Shown: piece after piece, positions 3,230 through 11,083 of the stretch | How the letters are laid out: each line of letters starts with the position of its first letter | How positions within the stretch are numbered: position 1 is the stretch's first letter | Origin: Candidatus Stramentimicrobium fermentans | GTDB lineage: Bacteria; Atribacterota; Phoenicimicrobiia; Phoenicimicrobiales; Stramentimicrobiaceae | DNA length: 15,989 nt | Direction: 5' to 3' | Assembly: GCA_012520575.1 (NCBI GenBank) | Contig: JAAYOB010000044.1 | Location: forward strand, 1-15,989 | Made by a program: the position numbers and the translations under genes | Notes under the pieces: generated by a model | What the model saw: only the letters and a program-made list of their open reading frames with translations | Database searches by the model: none | What the model was told of the DNA's origin: nothing

Positions 3230-3769
3230 TTACATAAGCAGCGGTTTGATTGCTTTCTGCAAGAGCCTTGCTGTCAGCTTTGTTGTTCGAATAGATAGCA
3301 TGATAGTTTTTTCCTTTCCTTTCCGGCTCTGCCTCGCCATCTATGCAAGGAGAGGGGTTAGGGGAAAGGATAGGAATGGAATCGATAATCATTCCATCTT
3401 TATTTTTTAATTCTTTATCTAGTATTTCTTTATTTAATTGCGTTGAATTTTCCAACATAGGTAAATCTGATGCAGGCGGCTGTTCTCATAAATCACATAG
3501 TCCGCACCGTGAAGCCGTCCTTTTTCGTCTCTTGTGCGGGAACGGACAATATGCCCAGCTCGTTCCAACTCTTTGATTGCTTCGCGGATTATGTCGATCT
3601 TCTCTCGGTTGATATGGGACAGCCCTGCAAGGGTATAGTCCCAGTTCTCATGGAGCGAAAACATCTGTGAGAGCAAGCCTTTTGCTTTTAGGGTCAATTC
3701 CTTGTTGCGCAAATGGTGGTTGCTCATAACGGTATAGCATTTGTTTCGCTCTACACGGAATACTGCCAT
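3225..3769 (-). pseudogene. RepA-like replication initiator of a Tn1549-type element, frameshifted and truncated
   Basis: The N-terminal half (3434-3769) reads MAVFRVERNKCYTVMSNHHL, then YTLAGLSHINREKIDIIREA and GRLHGADYVIYE. This is the winged-helix replication initiator N-terminal domain found at the head of clostridial conjugative elements, where it is followed by a linker and a DUF6017-type C-terminal domain. After VIYEN the frame shifts by one base: the linker PPASDLPMLENSTQLNKEI continues in the frame ending at 3225. The best explanation is a one-base loss from an A-run near 3480-3490. The linker goes on to DSIPILSPNPSP, then unrelated residues and a stop, so the C-terminal domain is gone. 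The ATG at 3767-3769 follows AGGAGG (3777-3782). Together with the truncated pcfB this marks an internal deletion near 3230-3310. Confidence 0.85.
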
Positions 3770-3915
3770 AGTGTCACCTCCTAATAATTTTTCTGTTACG
3801 CATTAGAACAGTAATTTTGCAGAAAAAGGCATAAAGCCTTTGCCACGTCAGAAACATGCCTTAAAAGACGCTTATAGCGGGGCGGAAATGCCGTATAATG
3901 CTTAACATCAGACAT

Positions 3916-3953
3916 AAAAAAGCGACATAGACTTATAAAAAAATCTATGCCGC
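3916..3953 (-). terminator. Minus-strand intrinsic terminator upstream of the rep remnant
   Basis: On the minus strand, a 10-base stem pairs 3944-3953 with 3922-3931, with one G-U pair. The stem is followed directly by six T residues (3916-3921). No T-run follows on the plus strand. No minus-strand gene now lies upstream, so it probably ended a gene of the element that has since been lost to the right. Confidence 0.65.
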
Positions 3954-4320
3954 GGTACATACGACAAGGGACGCTCTTTGTAGAAACATCCCTTTATTGC
4001 TCGATTATTCGATTTTTGACTTTGTCCTGTTTGCCCGCTACATAGAAAACCTTTAATTTTACTACATTTTTTCATATTTTCTTATGTCAGCGTGCATGGA
4101 GAGGGTTTTGTCGTGATAAAGATCTATTAAAGGCCATGGAGGGTCATATTCTGGCAGAGGTAGAGTCAATAGGCTTCTATCAACGGGGGCAAATCTTATC
4201 TCAAATAAATTCAACCAAACCATCTAACCGAAAGTAGTATTAATATGCTTTCTATTTCAAAATAATCTATTTCGCCAAACCTTAAAGAGATTTTAACCTT
4301 TTTTAACTTAGAAAATTTAA
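3954..4320. other. Gene-poor junction between element remnants and chromosome
   Basis: Together with 3770-3915 and the 5' region of the next gene, this makes almost 690 bases without a clear gene. A plus-strand frame is open from 4046 to the TAG at 4235-4237 (63 codons). It has no usable start except an internal ATG at 4136 without a ribosome binding site. Its last part, KDLLKAMEGHILAEVESIGF, looks like an amphipathic protein helix and could be the tail of a chromosomal gene cut by the element. I do not recognise it. No integrase gene is visible, and I could not identify an attachment site or direct repeat with confidence. Confidence 0.35.
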
Positions 4321-4349
4321 TTGATTTAATGAGAATAATAGTTTAAAAT
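4321..4349 (+). promoter_or_regulatory. Sigma-A-like promoter for the RimK-like gene
   Basis: TTGATT (4321-4326) and TAAAAT (4344-4349) are 17 bases apart, each close to the consensus. They lie about 105 bases before the ATG at 4456. Placement is right, but AT-rich sequence can give such matches by chance. Confidence 0.5.
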
Positions 4350-4363
4350 TGGACTCTGCCGTA

Positions 4364-4379
4364 TCTCTAGGGATAGAGA
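4364..4379 (+). other. Small perfect hairpin in the 5' leader of the RimK-like gene
   Basis: TCTCTA (4364-4369) pairs perfectly with TAGAGA (4374-4379) around the loop GGGA, a GNRA-type tetraloop. It would fold near the 5' end of the mRNA from the predicted promoter. No T-run follows, so it is not a terminator. It may be an mRNA-stabilising 5' stem, which is inference. Confidence 0.35.
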
Positions 4380-4455
4380 AAAAGATGGTAAGATAAGAAA
4401 ATCTTCTAACTTGAAAGAAAGTGCCAATTTTGGGGAAATAAATAGGAGAAAATAT

Positions 4456-5364
4456 ATGGAAGGTTGGATCCTTTATAAACAGCGCCAGAGTGAGATATCA
4501 ACAGATAAGTATGAGATGAATCGATTTTTAGAGGTAGCAGAGAAGAGAGGGTTAAGCTTAAAAATCTTATGTCCGGAACAATTCGATTTGCTGGTCAATC
4601 GCGATGACAATAAGAGTATAATTGTGGACAATCAATATACCCAACTACCACAATTTTTATTACCACGGCAGGGTGCCAGTACTCCCTATTTTTCACTGGC
4701 AGTCATCAGACACCTTGAGCGGTTGGGGGTAAATACTTTTAATTCTTCACGAAGTATTGAAACAGTAAAGGATAAGTTGTATACTCAGCAGATTTTAGCT
4801 GCTCATAATTTTCCGGTACCCCGAACAATGCTGGCTCGATACCCCTTGAATATTCAACTAATTAAAGATACTATCGGATTTCCTATAGTGGTGAAAACTA
4901 TTTCCGGCTCACAGGGGAGTGGAGTTTTTTTATGCGAAACCCCCGATAATCTGGAAGATCTCATGCGCTTAATTGACACTGCAAAACCCCTGGCTAACTT
5001 CATTATTCAAGAGTTTATCAAATCCAGCAAGGGACGTGATTTAAGAGTATTCGTTGTTGGCGGCAGAGTCATTGCCTGCATGGAAAGAACGTCACGTGAT
5101 GGTAGCTTTAAAGCCAACTTTTCCCGAGGTGGTGAAGTCCGAGCATTTCCGGTGAGTAAAGAGATCGAGCAGTTGGTTACCGAGTGTGCCGGTGTTTTAA
5201 ATTTAGATATCACCGGTATCGATTTATTATTTGATGGTGAGAGTTTTAAGGTGTGTGAAGTCAACTCTTCACCGGGCTTTAAAGGGATTGAAAGCTGTTG
5301 TGATGTCAGTATTCCTGATACTATTTTTGATTTCATCCAAATCAGGCTAGGGCTTTACTCTTAA
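4456..5364 (+). CDS. RimK-like ATP-grasp carboxylate-amine ligase
   Basis: This 302-residue protein has the ATP-grasp core of the RimK/LysX group, enzymes that activate a carboxylate as acyl-phosphate and join it to an amine (often L-glutamate or an amino-acid carrier protein). Visible features are a preceding Rossmann-like domain (1-95), K107, FPIVVKT with K147, and the flexible glycine loop GSQGSGV (151-157). Also present are QEF near 185, RDLRVFVVGG (194-203), the magnesium ligand region GIDLLF (about 254-259) and E268-V-N270-SSPGF. The length suits the family. The ATG at 4456 follows AGGAG by 7 bases; an upstream in-frame TTG (4411) lacks a site. No LysW-like carrier lies nearby, so lysine biosynthesis is unlikely, and the substrate is unknown. 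Tail-to-tail with htpX. Confidence 0.85.
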   Translation: MEGWILYKQRQSEISTDKYEMNRFLEVAEKRGLSLKILCPEQFDLLVNRDDNKSIIVDNQYTQLPQFLLPRQGASTPYFSLAVIRHLERLGVNTFNSSRSIETVKDKLYTQQILAAHNFPVPRTMLARYPLNIQLIKDTIGFPIVVKTISGSQGSGVFLCETPDNLEDLMRLIDTAKPLANFIIQEFIKSSKGRDLRVFVVGGRVIACMERTSRDGSFKANFSRGGEVRAFPVSKEIEQLVTECAGVLNLDITGIDLLFDGESFKVCEVNSSPGFKGIESCCDVSIPDTIFDFIQIRLGLYS

Positions 5365-6542: not shown

Positions 6543-6832
6543 TTTAAACACCCCTAGTTCTGTTAGAAATTCAGATAATTTAGTGCAATATAAGTATAAT
6601 ACATTAAAATCCTTTCCTCAAGCTGCTTATCATAAAAACCTAATTGAAATAATGGTTAAAACATGCTAATTTTATGTTATTGAGATGTGTTAAAAATCTG
6701 ATACCTGAATCATTAAGACGAGATACTATCAAGGTCTTTTCTAAAAATAACTTTTCCTTAAATTACTATCTTAATGCAATTCAAATAGAACGGTTTAAAA
6801 ATATAAAAATAAAAAGCAGGAGGCATTTACTA

Positions 6833-7531
6833 ATGAGTATTCATATTGGTGCCGAACCGGGAGATATCGCTCCCACTATACTATTGCCCGGGGACCCCTT
6901 ACGTGCAAAATATATTGCCGAGAATTTTCTGGAAGAAGCATATTGCTACAATGAAGTGAGGGGGATGTACGGATTTACCGGCCGCTATCAAGGGAAATTA
7001 ATTTCTGTCCAGGGGACTGGTATGGGAATACCTTCTATTTCCATCTATCTCAATGAGTTAATCAATCAGTATCAGGTCAGAAAATTAATCAGGGTTGGAA
7101 GCTGTGGTTCACTGCAGCCGGAGGTGAAAGTTCGGGATATCATACTGGCTATAGGCGCTTCTACCGATTCGGCTATGAATAAAATTCGTTTTAAGGGTAA
7201 GGACTTTGCCCCTACTGCCTGTTATCAGCTTTTAAAACAGGCTGAGCTTGTTGCAAGTGAGAATGACATTCCAGTACATATCGGAAATGTCTTAACGGAA
7301 GATATGTTTTATCAGGATGACCCGGACCACTGGAAGTTATGGGCTTCCTATGGTGTGCTAGCTGTGGAAATGGAGACAGCAGCTCTTTATACCCTGGCTG
7401 CCAAGTTTAAGGTCAAGGCACTTTCTATCTTAACGGTAAGTGATAGTCTTGTTTCTCATGAGGAGACCACTTCAGCGGAAAGAGAGAGGACTTTTAATGA
7501 TATGATAGAGATTGCCCTGAACCTAATCTAA
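6833..7531 (+). CDS. deoD: Purine nucleoside phosphorylase, DeoD type
   Basis: This 232-residue protein starts [20 protein letters not shown] and has the PNP/UDP motif as RVGSCGSLQ. It also has [10 protein letters not shown]-like [14 protein letters not shown] for the ribose site and LTVSDSL with the catalytic aspartate of hexameric DeoD enzymes. It cleaves purine (deoxy)nucleosides with phosphate in the cytosol. The ATG at 6833 follows AGGAGG by about 7 bases. The frame is open 53 codons further back (to 6674), but that part has no ribosome binding site and no homology to DeoD, so it is leader. It is divergent from htpX across about 290 bases; TTGAAA (6644-6649) and TAATTT (6667-6672) there are only a weak promoter candidate. 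It precedes the spermidine genes on the same strand, which suggests purine salvage next to AdoMet use. I do not infer that it takes methylthioadenosine. Confidence 0.93.
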
Positions 7532-7691: not shown

Positions 7692-8090
7692 ATGGATTAT
7701 TTGGGAAATCATCTTTTAGTTGAATTGTATGAATGTAACTCATCAAAACTAAACGACCAGAACCAGTTGGAAAGGGTATTAGAAGATGCCGTACGTATCT
7801 CCGGGGCTACTCCATTGAAGTCATCTTTTCATCAGTTTGCACCCCAGGGAGTCAGTGGATTTATTATCATTGCCGAATCTCATTTTTCAATACATACCTG
7901 GCCGGAATTCGGTTACGCCGCATTGGATATATTCACGTGCGGTGACAGCATAGATAATAAGAAGGCACTGGATTTTATTGAAAGTGAGCTGGATGTTAAA
8001 ACGGTAACAGTAACTGAAATAAAAAGAGGGAATGCCCATTTCCCCTTAAAGATAAACAAAAAAGTCTCTGCCCAAGTAGGAGTATTTTAA
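7692..8090 (+). CDS. speD: S-adenosylmethionine decarboxylase proenzyme (bacterial class 1B)
   Basis: This pyruvoyl enzyme turns AdoMet into decarboxylated AdoMet, the aminopropyl donor for spermidine. The 132-residue proenzyme has GNHLLVELYECN at its start and the self-cleavage motif AESHFSIHTWPE (61-72). The chain is cut before S63, which becomes the pyruvoyl group. H68 and C83 (in LDIFTCG), known catalytic residues of the short bacterial enzymes, sit at the expected positions. The numbering is the same as in the well-studied Thermotoga enzyme. The ATG at 7692 follows GAGGGTAAAGAA. It is 7 bases from the next gene, a diverged homologue, and upstream of speE, so the three form one transcription unit. 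Confidence 0.95.
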   Translation: MDYLGNHLLVELYECNSSKLNDQNQLERVLEDAVRISGATPLKSSFHQFAPQGVSGFIIIAESHFSIHTWPEFGYAALDIFTCGDSIDNKKALDFIESELDVKTVTVTEIKRGNAHFPLKINKKVSAQVGVF

Positions 8091-8097
8091 AAAAAAG

Positions 8098-8490
8098 ATG
8101 AAAGATATTCAAATTCTTAAAGAGGATTATGAAAAAGAAAATATTTGGGGCTTACTCACCAGCATAGATTTACACCATTGTAATCCTGAATTAATTCGGG
8201 ATGCGGACGCCATCAAGCGCTATGTGGCCGAGTTGTGCATATTAATTGAAATGAAGAGATTTGGTGATACTCTGGTGGTAAATTTCGGAGAGGATGAAAG
8301 GGTAGCTGGATTTTCTATGACCCAGCTCATTGAGACCTCTTTAATTTCTGGTCATTTCGCCAATAAAAGTAATGCTGCCTATATCGATATTTTTAGCTGT
8401 AAGTTTTACGACTCCCAGATAGCTGCAGATTTTACTCAGGAATTCTTTCAGGCGAAAGAAATGACCATCCACTATATTTTAAGGAAATAG
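8098..8490 (+). CDS. Diverged SpeD homologue, possible pyruvoyl-dependent amino acid decarboxylase
   Basis: This 130-residue protein is a remote paralogue of the SpeD next door. GLLTSIDLHHCNPELI (18-33) matches the first SpeD strand and AAYIDIFSC (93-101) matches AALDIFTC. S81, H86 and C101 keep exactly the spacing of S63, H68 and C83 in SpeD. The surroundings differ: ESH becomes TSL and HTWPE becomes HFANK. Self-cleavage at S81 is thus possible, but AdoMet binding is doubtful. SpeD-family proteins that have become pyruvoyl-dependent ornithine or arginine decarboxylases have been described in bacteria and archaea. The place between speD and speE fits a putrescine or agmatine supplier. A regulatory or inactive role remains possible. 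The start has no clear ribosome binding site (an AGGAG lies 15 bases away), so it may depend on translational coupling to speD. Confidence 0.75.
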   Translation: MKDIQILKEDYEKENIWGLLTSIDLHHCNPELIRDADAIKRYVAELCILIEMKRFGDTLVVNFGEDERVAGFSMTQLIETSLISGHFANKSNAAYIDIFSCKFYDSQIAADFTQEFFQAKEMTIHYILRK

Positions 8491-8495
8491 GTATT

Positions 8496-9341
8496 TTGAG
8501 CCAGATTGATTTATGGTTTGGAGAACAATACGGAAGAGAAAACGGGCGTTATCTAAATATAAAATTAGATAACGTCCTGGAAAAAATAGTGTCTCCTTTT
8601 CAGGAAATTTATGTAGTAAACTCTCCCGCCTTTGGCAAAGTCCTGATTAATGATGGTGTGGTTATGCTTACTGAGGCAGATGAAGCCGGCTACCATGAGA
8701 TGATTGCCCATGTTCCACTCTGTTCTCATCCTGAGCCTCGGGAGGTTCTGGTAATAGGAGGGGGAGATGGCGGTACAGTACGTGAACTCCTGAAACATCC
8801 TCAGGTAAAAAGAGTGGATATTTGCGAGATTGACGGTATGGTTATTGAGATTTGCCGCAAACATTTTCCTAATTTAGCAAATAGTTTTTCCCATGAGAAG
8901 GTACACATCTATCTGGAGGATGGTGCCAAATTCCTGACCACCAGAAAAGGGCAGTATGACGTAATAATAGTTGACTCTACTGATCCTATCGGACCAGGCG
9001 CCACTCTATTTACAGAGCAGTTTTACCGCTCTATCTCTTCTTCTTTGAAAGAAGATGGGATTGCAGTGAGCCAGATGGAATCAATCTTCTGGCATACCGA
9101 ATTTATTCAGAATACTTTCCTCTATCTGAAAAAAATATTTCCCATTACAACATATTATTATACTATGGTGCCTACTTATCCCAGTGGCATGATTGGTTTT
9201 AGCTTTTGCTCCAAGAAGTATCACCCCATTGAAGATTTTATTGTTGAACGGGCAGAGGAAATACCCGATTTAAGATATTACCACTCCGAACTGCACAGAG
9301 CTGCCTTTCAACTTCCTTCTTTTGCTAAAAATATTTTCTAA
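8496..9341 (+). CDS. speE: Spermidine synthase (polyamine aminopropyltransferase)
   Basis: SpeE moves the aminopropyl group from decarboxylated AdoMet to putrescine, giving spermidine and methylthioadenosine. The 281-residue protein has the N-terminal strand domain, GYHEMIAHVPL (65-75), the SAM-fold glycine motif VIGGGDGGTVREL (86-98) and EIDGMVIE (111-118). These are followed by EDGAKF (141-146) and DSTDPIGPGATLF (160-172), where the aspartates bind the amine. The length is typical. It starts with TTG at 8496, only 5 bases after the preceding stop, behind a modest AGGAAATAGG. That weak start and the close spacing suggest coupled translation with the SpeD homologue. Whether the acceptor is putrescine or another diamine cannot be settled here. 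Confidence 0.95.
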   Translation: MSQIDLWFGEQYGRENGRYLNIKLDNVLEKIVSPFQEIYVVNSPAFGKVLINDGVVMLTEADEAGYHEMIAHVPLCSHPEPREVLVIGGGDGGTVRELLKHPQVKRVDICEIDGMVIEICRKHFPNLANSFSHEKVHIYLEDGAKFLTTRKGQYDVIIVDSTDPIGPGATLFTEQFYRSISSSLKEDGIAVSQMESIFWHTEFIQNTFLYLKKIFPITTYYYTMVPTYPSGMIGFSFCSKKYHPIEDFIVERAEEIPDLRYYHSELHRAAFQLPSFAKNIF

Positions 9342-9413: not shown

Positions 9414-10076
9414 ATGGTTGACATCACAATATCCGACAGATTAAGAAAGTCCTGTCCTTATCTCAGATTGGGAGTTATTAAATCTGAGGTAAAATATGGG
9501 AAAGACCATGAACTTTTAGGACAAGAGATTGAGGAAACTATAAAATCAGTTCAAAGTTCTCTCAGTCGGAATCAGATTGCCGACCTTCCCGTTATAAGAC
9601 ATACCAGAGAGGCATATCTGGCTTTAGGCAAAGAGCCGGCTCGCTACCGCTGCTCTGCCGAAGCATTGTTACGGCGAGCGGTACAGGAGAAAGGCCTATA
9701 CCGTATTAATAATGTTGTGGATATTATCAATCTTATCTCATTACAATTTCATTTTTCTATAGGCTGCTATGATTATCAAAGATTAAGTGAGCCTATTACC
9801 TTTGATATAGCACAAGATGGTGAAACTTATCAGGCAATTGGCAGAGGAACAATGAAAATAGCCCAGCTGCCGGTTTTTAGAGATGAGCAGGGCCCATTCG
9901 GCAGCCCAACCAGTGATTCTGAACGTACTATGATTACCCGTCACACCAGAGAGGTTCTGATTGTAATTATCGATTTTTGCGGAACTGACCCCTTATCTGA
10001 GGCGATGGGAAAGACTTGCTTCTATTTGAAAGAGTATGCCGTTTTCCGGAATGATTACTATTCCGTTATAGTGTAG
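9414..10076 (+). CDS. B3/B4 domain protein, like the editing domain of PheRS beta chain
   Basis: This 220-residue protein consists essentially of the B3/B4 fold known from the beta subunit of phenylalanyl-tRNA synthetase. Typical marks are REAYLALGKEPARYRCSAEA (about 64-83), NNVVDIINLIS (about 98-108) and GSPTSDSERT (about 164-173). Freestanding B3/B4 proteins are common in bacteria. They may help clear wrongly charged tRNA or handle an unusual amino acid, but most are uncharacterised. The ATG at 9414 has only a weak AGGTTAAG upstream. It follows speE by 72 bases on the same strand, so co-transcription is possible. Its last 11 bases overlap the end of the convergent aldolase gene. Confidence 0.85.
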   Translation: MVDITISDRLRKSCPYLRLGVIKSEVKYGKDHELLGQEIEETIKSVQSSLSRNQIADLPVIRHTREAYLALGKEPARYRCSAEALLRRAVQEKGLYRINNVVDIINLISLQFHFSIGCYDYQRLSEPITFDIAQDGETYQAIGRGTMKIAQLPVFRDEQGPFGSPTSDSERTMITRHTREVLIVIIDFCGTDPLSEAMGKTCFYLKEYAVFRNDYYSVIV

Positions 10077-10974
10077 ATACTATCTTCAAATCCGCATCCA
10101 CTAATATTTTTTTAATCTTTTCCTTCTCTTCCTGCTTAAGCGGCAGTAATGGTAACCTGGTCTCCCCACCTTTATAGCCCAATAAATCCATGGCATATTT
10201 AAGCCCGCTAATACCAAAAGTAGCCGTAGTAGCATGATTTACCGGTATCATACGGAGTTGAAACTCTCTGGCTTTCTCATAATTCCCCGACTTTACTAAT
10301 TGATATATTTCTACACATTGCTCAGGTGCAATATTAGCCAAGGCTAAAATACCGCCGCTGCACCCCAGAGTAAGTGCCCCAAAGAGCGCCCCGGCTGTAC
10401 CGACCAGGATATTAAAATTACTTTCCACTCTGTTTAGAAATTGTCCTAACTGATTAACATTTCCACTACTGTCTTTGATACCTATTATATTGTGATGGTG
10501 AGATAGTTGTACCAGAGTTTCTGTACTCATATTAATACCGGTAAATTTAGGTACATTGTAGAGCAAGATGGGGATTTTGGCTTGGTCTGCAACCAGAGAA
10601 TAGTATTTTATTAAGGCCTCTTCATTCATCTTGTTGTTATAGTAAAAAGGAGTGACTAACAGGGCAGCATGAGCTCCAAGCTCAGCTAATTTATTGGTAA
10701 GGCAGATAGTTTCTCGAGCTGATTCACATCCAGAGCCTACTATAATGAGCTTATCTTTAGCAGCATGCTGTATAACTTTTTGTACTACCTCGATTTTCTC
10801 TTGTTCAGAAAGGAAAACATTTTCTCCATTGGAGCCCAATATCACCATACCCCTAATACCACTCTTATTTAATTTTTCCACATTCTCTATTAAATAATCA
10901 TAAGCAACTTCTTCCTTCCGGAATGGAGTAACTATGGGTGGAAAAATACCTGAAAAATATAAATTATTGTTCAT
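10066..10974 (-). CDS. Dihydrodipicolinate synthase-family aldolase, HOGA-like
   Basis: This 302-residue class I lyase is a TIM barrel with Schiff-base lysine K167 (IGIKDSSG) and catalytic tyrosine Y139 (LLYNVP). At the substrate loop it has GSNGE (47-51), where true DapA usually has GTTGE. Further on it has GSGCES (80-85), GCSGGILALANI and FGISGLKYAMDLLGYKGG. These agree better with 4-hydroxy-2-oxoglutarate aldolase (as in human HOGA1) than with lysine-pathway DapA. The reaction would be retro-aldol cleavage to pyruvate plus glyoxylate, or a related keto-acid. The ATG at 10972-10974 follows GGAGG by 5 bases; a further 13 codons upstream to 11013 lack a site. No lysine genes lie nearby. I am sure of the superfamily but not of the substrate. 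Confidence 0.85.
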   Translation of the reverse strand: MNNNLYFSGIFPPIVTPFRKEEVAYDYLIENVEKLNKSGIRGMVILGSNGENVFLSEQEKIEVVQKVIQHAAKDKLIIVGSGCESARETICLTNKLAELGAHAALLVTPFYYNNKMNEEALIKYYSLVADQAKIPILLYNVPKFTGINMSTETLVQLSHHHNIIGIKDSSGNVNQLGQFLNRVESNFNILVGTAGALFGALTLGCSGGILALANIAPEQCVEIYQLVKSGNYEKAREFQLRMIPVNHATTATFGISGLKYAMDLLGYKGGETRLPLLPLKQEEKEKIKKILVDADLKIVSTL

Positions 10975-11083
10975 ATATACCTCCTTCAGTATGGGATGAA
11001 AAATTAACAGCATAAAGCTTATCTATTAGTATAATACAAAATTCTATATTTAGAAATTGTCTAAAAAATATTTTGACGGGGTA

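Follow-up and report, generated by a model that had tools for sequence, protein, structure and literature searches.

The window is a 15,989-nucleotide stretch of Candidatus Stramentimicrobium fermentans DNA, and its open reading frame at positions 8098-8490 of the plus strand is very probably speDC, the gene for a pyruvoyl-dependent L-ornithine decarboxylase (probability about 0.93). We infer this activity of the window protein itself from motif, phylogeny, fold, operon structure, and gene absences, which agree with one another, and close relatives have been assayed. These lines of evidence thus support an earlier note on this DNA, which had proposed a neofunctionalised pyruvoyl-dependent ornithine or arginine decarboxylase as a supplier for spermidine synthesis. 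The 130-residue proenzyme would fold like a class 1b AdoMet decarboxylase and cut itself before S81, so that the N-terminus created by the cut carries a pyruvoyl group. With this group, and with H86 and C101, the enzyme would convert L-ornithine to putrescine by decarboxylation. SpeD, encoded next to it, would supply decarboxylated AdoMet, which SpeE would join with putrescine to form spermidine, and the three-gene cluster would thereby need no PLP decarboxylase to lead from ornithine and AdoMet to spermidine.

SpeDC is an enzyme type that was discovered and assayed in 2023, with self-processing and ornithine decarboxylase activity (PMC10407285). Li et al. (2023; PMC10407285) showed that SpeD homologues have evolved in two ways, into SpeDC, which decarboxylates L-ornithine, and into SpeDA, which decarboxylates L-arginine. 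The SpeDC family, its clustering with speD and speE, and a member from Atribacteria are all already published in that paper. This member, the 127-residue SpeD2 of Ca. Atribacteria bacterium CG08_land_8_20_14_0_20_33_29 (PIU25646), is encoded in one cluster with speE and a second speD, decarboxylates ornithine with a kcat/Km of 820 M-1 s-1, and is reported there to have no activity on arginine or lysine (PMC10407285). It is in the same size class as the window protein and matches it in cluster content, and it bears the phylum name of the window protein's nearest named relatives, although the species differs. Ornithine decarboxylase activity was also measured for KXK35843, the SpeD1SpeD2 fusion of OLB16 from Ca. 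Omnitrophica/Hinthialibacteria (PMC10407285). The corresponding open reading frame in our set (L052) is 318 residues long from its first ATG and matches KXK35843 in length and organism. Its C-terminal domain is 60% identical to the window protein over residues 8-130 and has the same signature residues. OLB16 carries SpeDC and its SpeD partner fused in this one 318-residue protein, whereas the window encodes them in two separate genes.

The speDC gene starts with ATG and is 130 codons long. As the earlier note had placed it, it lies between speD (7692-8090), which encodes a classical class 1b AdoMet decarboxylase, and speE (8496-9341), which encodes spermidine synthase. All three genes are on the plus strand, with gaps of 7 bp between speD and speDC and 5 bp between speDC and speE. 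The speD product exceeds the cut-off of the AdoMet decarboxylase equivalog TIGR03330 at 147 bits and contains the ESH and HTWPE motifs, and the speE product exceeds that of TIGR00417 at 314 bits. The window's own genome (1.58 Mb, 98% complete) contains exactly two PF02675 genes, namely speD and speDC. The order speD-speDC-speE is conserved in 15/15 close relatives whose contig spans all three genes, which argues that speDC is neither a chance reading frame nor a pseudogene.

Upstream of speD is a deoD-type purine-nucleoside phosphorylase gene (6674-7531, plus strand; TIGR00107, 340 bits), and the deoD-speD order is preserved in both relatives examined with longer flanks (L166 and L167). That this enzyme salvages the by-product MTA is speculation. 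Ahead of speD, an Rfam scan detected no regulatory RNA. The sole Rfam match in the window is a PyrR binding-site RNA (RF00515, 11332-11478, 55.9 bits), which precedes a pyrimidine operon comprising OMP decarboxylase, the electron-transfer subunit of dihydroorotate dehydrogenase (DHOD), DHOD, and a phosphoribosyltransferase.

The speDC product matches the Pfam family AdoMet_dc (PF02675) with 81.1 bits (E 8.7e-23, cut-off 25) and falls below the cut-off of TIGR03330, scoring 32.4 bits against 75.65. It is a class 1b SpeD homologue that retains the processing serine and the catalytic histidine and cysteine. S81-(5)-H86-(15)-C101 aligns exactly and without gaps to S63-(5)-H68-(15)-C83 of the neighbouring SpeD, as the earlier note had described. 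The classical ESH is replaced by TSL and HTWPE by HFANK, which agrees with the loss of both motifs that it had reported; every one of its statements on the sequence proved correct. The T80-S81 bond is the predicted cleavage site, with S81 predicted to become the pyruvoyl group, and H86 and C101 are the predicted catalytic residues.

SpeDC enzymes are diagnosed by four residues in their central region, Gln, Thr, Phe, and Tyr (PMC10407285). In the window protein, Q76, T80, F87, and Y95, which correspond to I, E, T, and A in the adjacent SpeD, fit these four residues when the columns are assigned by the order in which the accessible text of PMC10407285 names them. The alignment comprises 97 cellular rows, in which some genomes are represented twice, and 33 viral rows. 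S81, H86, and C101 are invariant wherever they are covered in either set, and the four diagnostic positions are invariant or nearly so across the cellular rows. Conservation of Q76, T80, and Y95 is partly by construction, because loci were fetched with the patterns QLIETSLIS or AY[IL]DIFSC. F87 lies outside both patterns, and its column holds F in 95/97 cellular rows and Y in two; relatives from the phylum were fetched without patterns.

The AlphaFold2 model of the speDC product has a pLDDT of 93 and a pTM of 0.87. Its best matches in the PDB are the Thermotoga maritima AdoMet decarboxylase structures 1vr7 and 1tlu (rmsd 1.6 Å, 17% identity), which are also the solved structures closest to the classical SpeD of the window. 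A direct PDB sequence search with the speDC product gave no match, whereas the fold comparison did. The window protein has the fold, autoprocessing serine, and catalytic histidine and cysteine of the class 1b SpeD 1TLU, but it has lost the ESH/HTWPE substrate region, shares only that 17% identity with it in the structural alignment, and differs in predicted substrate. Because the predicted fold matches AdoMet decarboxylase, in addition to the aligned S81, H86, and C101, self-processing at S81 is plausible, as the earlier note had suggested.

A maximum-likelihood tree of 85 rows and 137 columns places the window protein in a SpeDC clade of 47 rows (support 100/99), apart from every classical SpeD; the bootstrap values are rough and had not fully settled. 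The clade also contains relatives from Methanospirillum and the assayed ornithine decarboxylase domain at the C-terminus of the OLB16 fusion. The validated AdoMet decarboxylase of phage phiN3 lies at the base of a broader divergent group in the tree, as it likewise does in PMC9992855, so only the inner clade is read as SpeDC. A search of annotated phage records for SpeDC homologues returned distant matches only.

The closest named loci are from Candidatus Atribacteria MAGs, with 82-66% identity to the window protein, and speDC was found in 17/24 genomes of the order, including the window's. For both SpeD and SpeDC, the subtree of the order divides into the same two families, which suggests that both genes are vertically inherited there. 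A recent local duplication of speD was rejected, as the two genes fall into distinct, deeply separated clades; speDC is an ancient lineage of its own that has been passed on together with speD. Nonsynonymous divergence (dN) of speDC is about 0.11, much the same as that of speD (0.11), and speE diverges more (0.17). Many pairs are close to saturation at synonymous sites, which makes the dN/dS ratio (omega) inestimable, and low dN beside near-saturated synonymous sites indicates purifying selection on speDC.

Several observations concern individual relatives. Between the window and its nearest relative (L004), speD is 94% identical, speDC 82%, and speE 81%, and synonymous divergence is far lower in speD, possibly through local recombination. 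The SpeDC of a contig labelled Nealsonbacteria (L039) is nested in the window's order (100/88), by gene transfer or mis-binning. In other families of the phylum (L020-L023 and L025-L027), SpeD is longer and contains ESHISIHTFP or ESHISVHTFP, and speE is absent from the short flank fetched for these loci.

Some of the evidence on the substrate comes from the window's own genome, in which gene absence rests on family searches that each had working controls in control genomes. No match was found there for Orn_Arg_deC_N (PF02784), arginase/agmatinase (PF00491), agmatine deiminase (PF04371), or PvlArgDC (PF01862). OKR_DC_1 has two sub-threshold matches, one of which resembles an aspartate aminotransferase and the other an AONS/KBL-type ligase when their sequences are read. 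By these searches, the genome has neither canonical SpeA or SpeC nor a route from agmatine to putrescine. The absence of a PF02784 match also means that no LysA was found in the genome, unlike in most relatives; a dapA-like gene in the window (10066-11013) scores just under the cut-off of the dapA model.

The paralogue could instead be SpeDA, a pyruvoyl arginine decarboxylase that forms agmatine. SpeD turned into an arginine decarboxylase at least three times, and the arginine decarboxylase of phage HTVC201P lies near the SpeDC clade (PMC10407285); our tree was built without named, assayed SpeDA sequences, including this phage enzyme. Yet the window protein carries all four SpeDC signature residues, and the assayed bacterial and archaeal SpeDC enzymes, Atribacteria included, are reported to have no arginine activity (PMC10407285). 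Agmatine would moreover be a dead end, as the genome has neither the PF00491 nor the PF04371 family that would supply a partner enzyme (SpeB or AguA/AguB), whereas putrescine feeds SpeE directly. Ornithine decarboxylation is therefore favoured, and arginine decarboxylation is unlikely. The earlier note had left putrescine and agmatine both open as products; putrescine is now preferred, and the agmatine half of the proposal is disfavoured by the missing agmatine-processing families.

Also unlikely is the reading that SpeDC of the window's lineage acts on a substrate other than ornithine, such as an N-modified ornithine or another diamino acid. It arises because the genome shows no recognisable ornithine route: ArgJ was not found, and ornithine carbamoyltransferase has no match over threshold. 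The only gene resembling ornithine carbamoyltransferase was rejected as such and is aspartate carbamoyltransferase, PyrB. As a guess, ornithine could be imported or come from arginine hydrolysis by an ADI/DDAH-superfamily protein on another contig (C9), for which no curated subfamily matched above its cut-off.

It is highly improbable that the paralogue is an inactive, prozyme-like protein that activates or stabilises SpeD as a heteromer. Catalytically dead AdoMet decarboxylase paralogues do work in this way in trypanosomes (PMC5201418), and Lentisphaerota fusions have degraded C-terminal SpeD domains (PMC10407285). However, S81, H86, and C101 show no such decay in any of the rows that cover them, SpeDC often occurs without detectable speD or speE in the fetched flank (L034, L039, L043, and others), and no other putrescine maker was found in the genome. 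That the paralogue is a second AdoMet decarboxylase is scarcely credible: it has the fold and catalytic triad in common with these enzymes but fails TIGR03330, clusters with ornithine decarboxylases in the tree, and has lost ESH and HTWPE, including a proline fully conserved in AdoMet decarboxylases (PMC10407285).

Eight viral contigs (L112, L114, L115, L116, L118, L120, L121, and L122) also have speD, speDC, and speE back to back at about 3600-5200, and in L114 and L115 they follow queD-, phoH-, and queE-like genes. Phages of these contigs may thus carry a full ornithine-to-spermidine module. The accessible text of PMC9992855 reports phage SpeD and SpeE pairs and SpeDC genes, but not the speD-speDC-speE triple.

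A comparison of SpeDC with PF02784 open reading frames across the phylum covered the window's genome and 49 others, 50 in all. Among the 25 genomes of families f4-f7, 24 have a second, shorter PF02784 open reading frame of the AR fold, mostly 384-404 residues long. All three short-type frames tested fall below the LysA TIGR01048 cut-off, and the one compared with the PDB best matches lysine/ornithine decarboxylases. This short type is absent from 17/17 SpeDC-bearing genomes. Where PF02784 frames are present in SpeDC genomes, they are LysA-sized or fragments; the two tested both exceed the LysA TIGR01048 cut-off, and the remaining PF02784 frames were classed by length and match span. SpeDC and the short AR-fold frame never occur together (Fisher P 3.5e-7, for genomes that form two clades and are not phylogenetically independent). 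This complementary distribution may reflect a single event, and the mutual exclusivity suggests that SpeDC replaced a PLP ornithine decarboxylase in the phylum. The exclusivity between families is a comparative point that the accessible text of PMC10407285 does not contain, and the raw sequence of the window bears out, for a candidate phylum, a PLP-free putrescine route that was discovered only recently.
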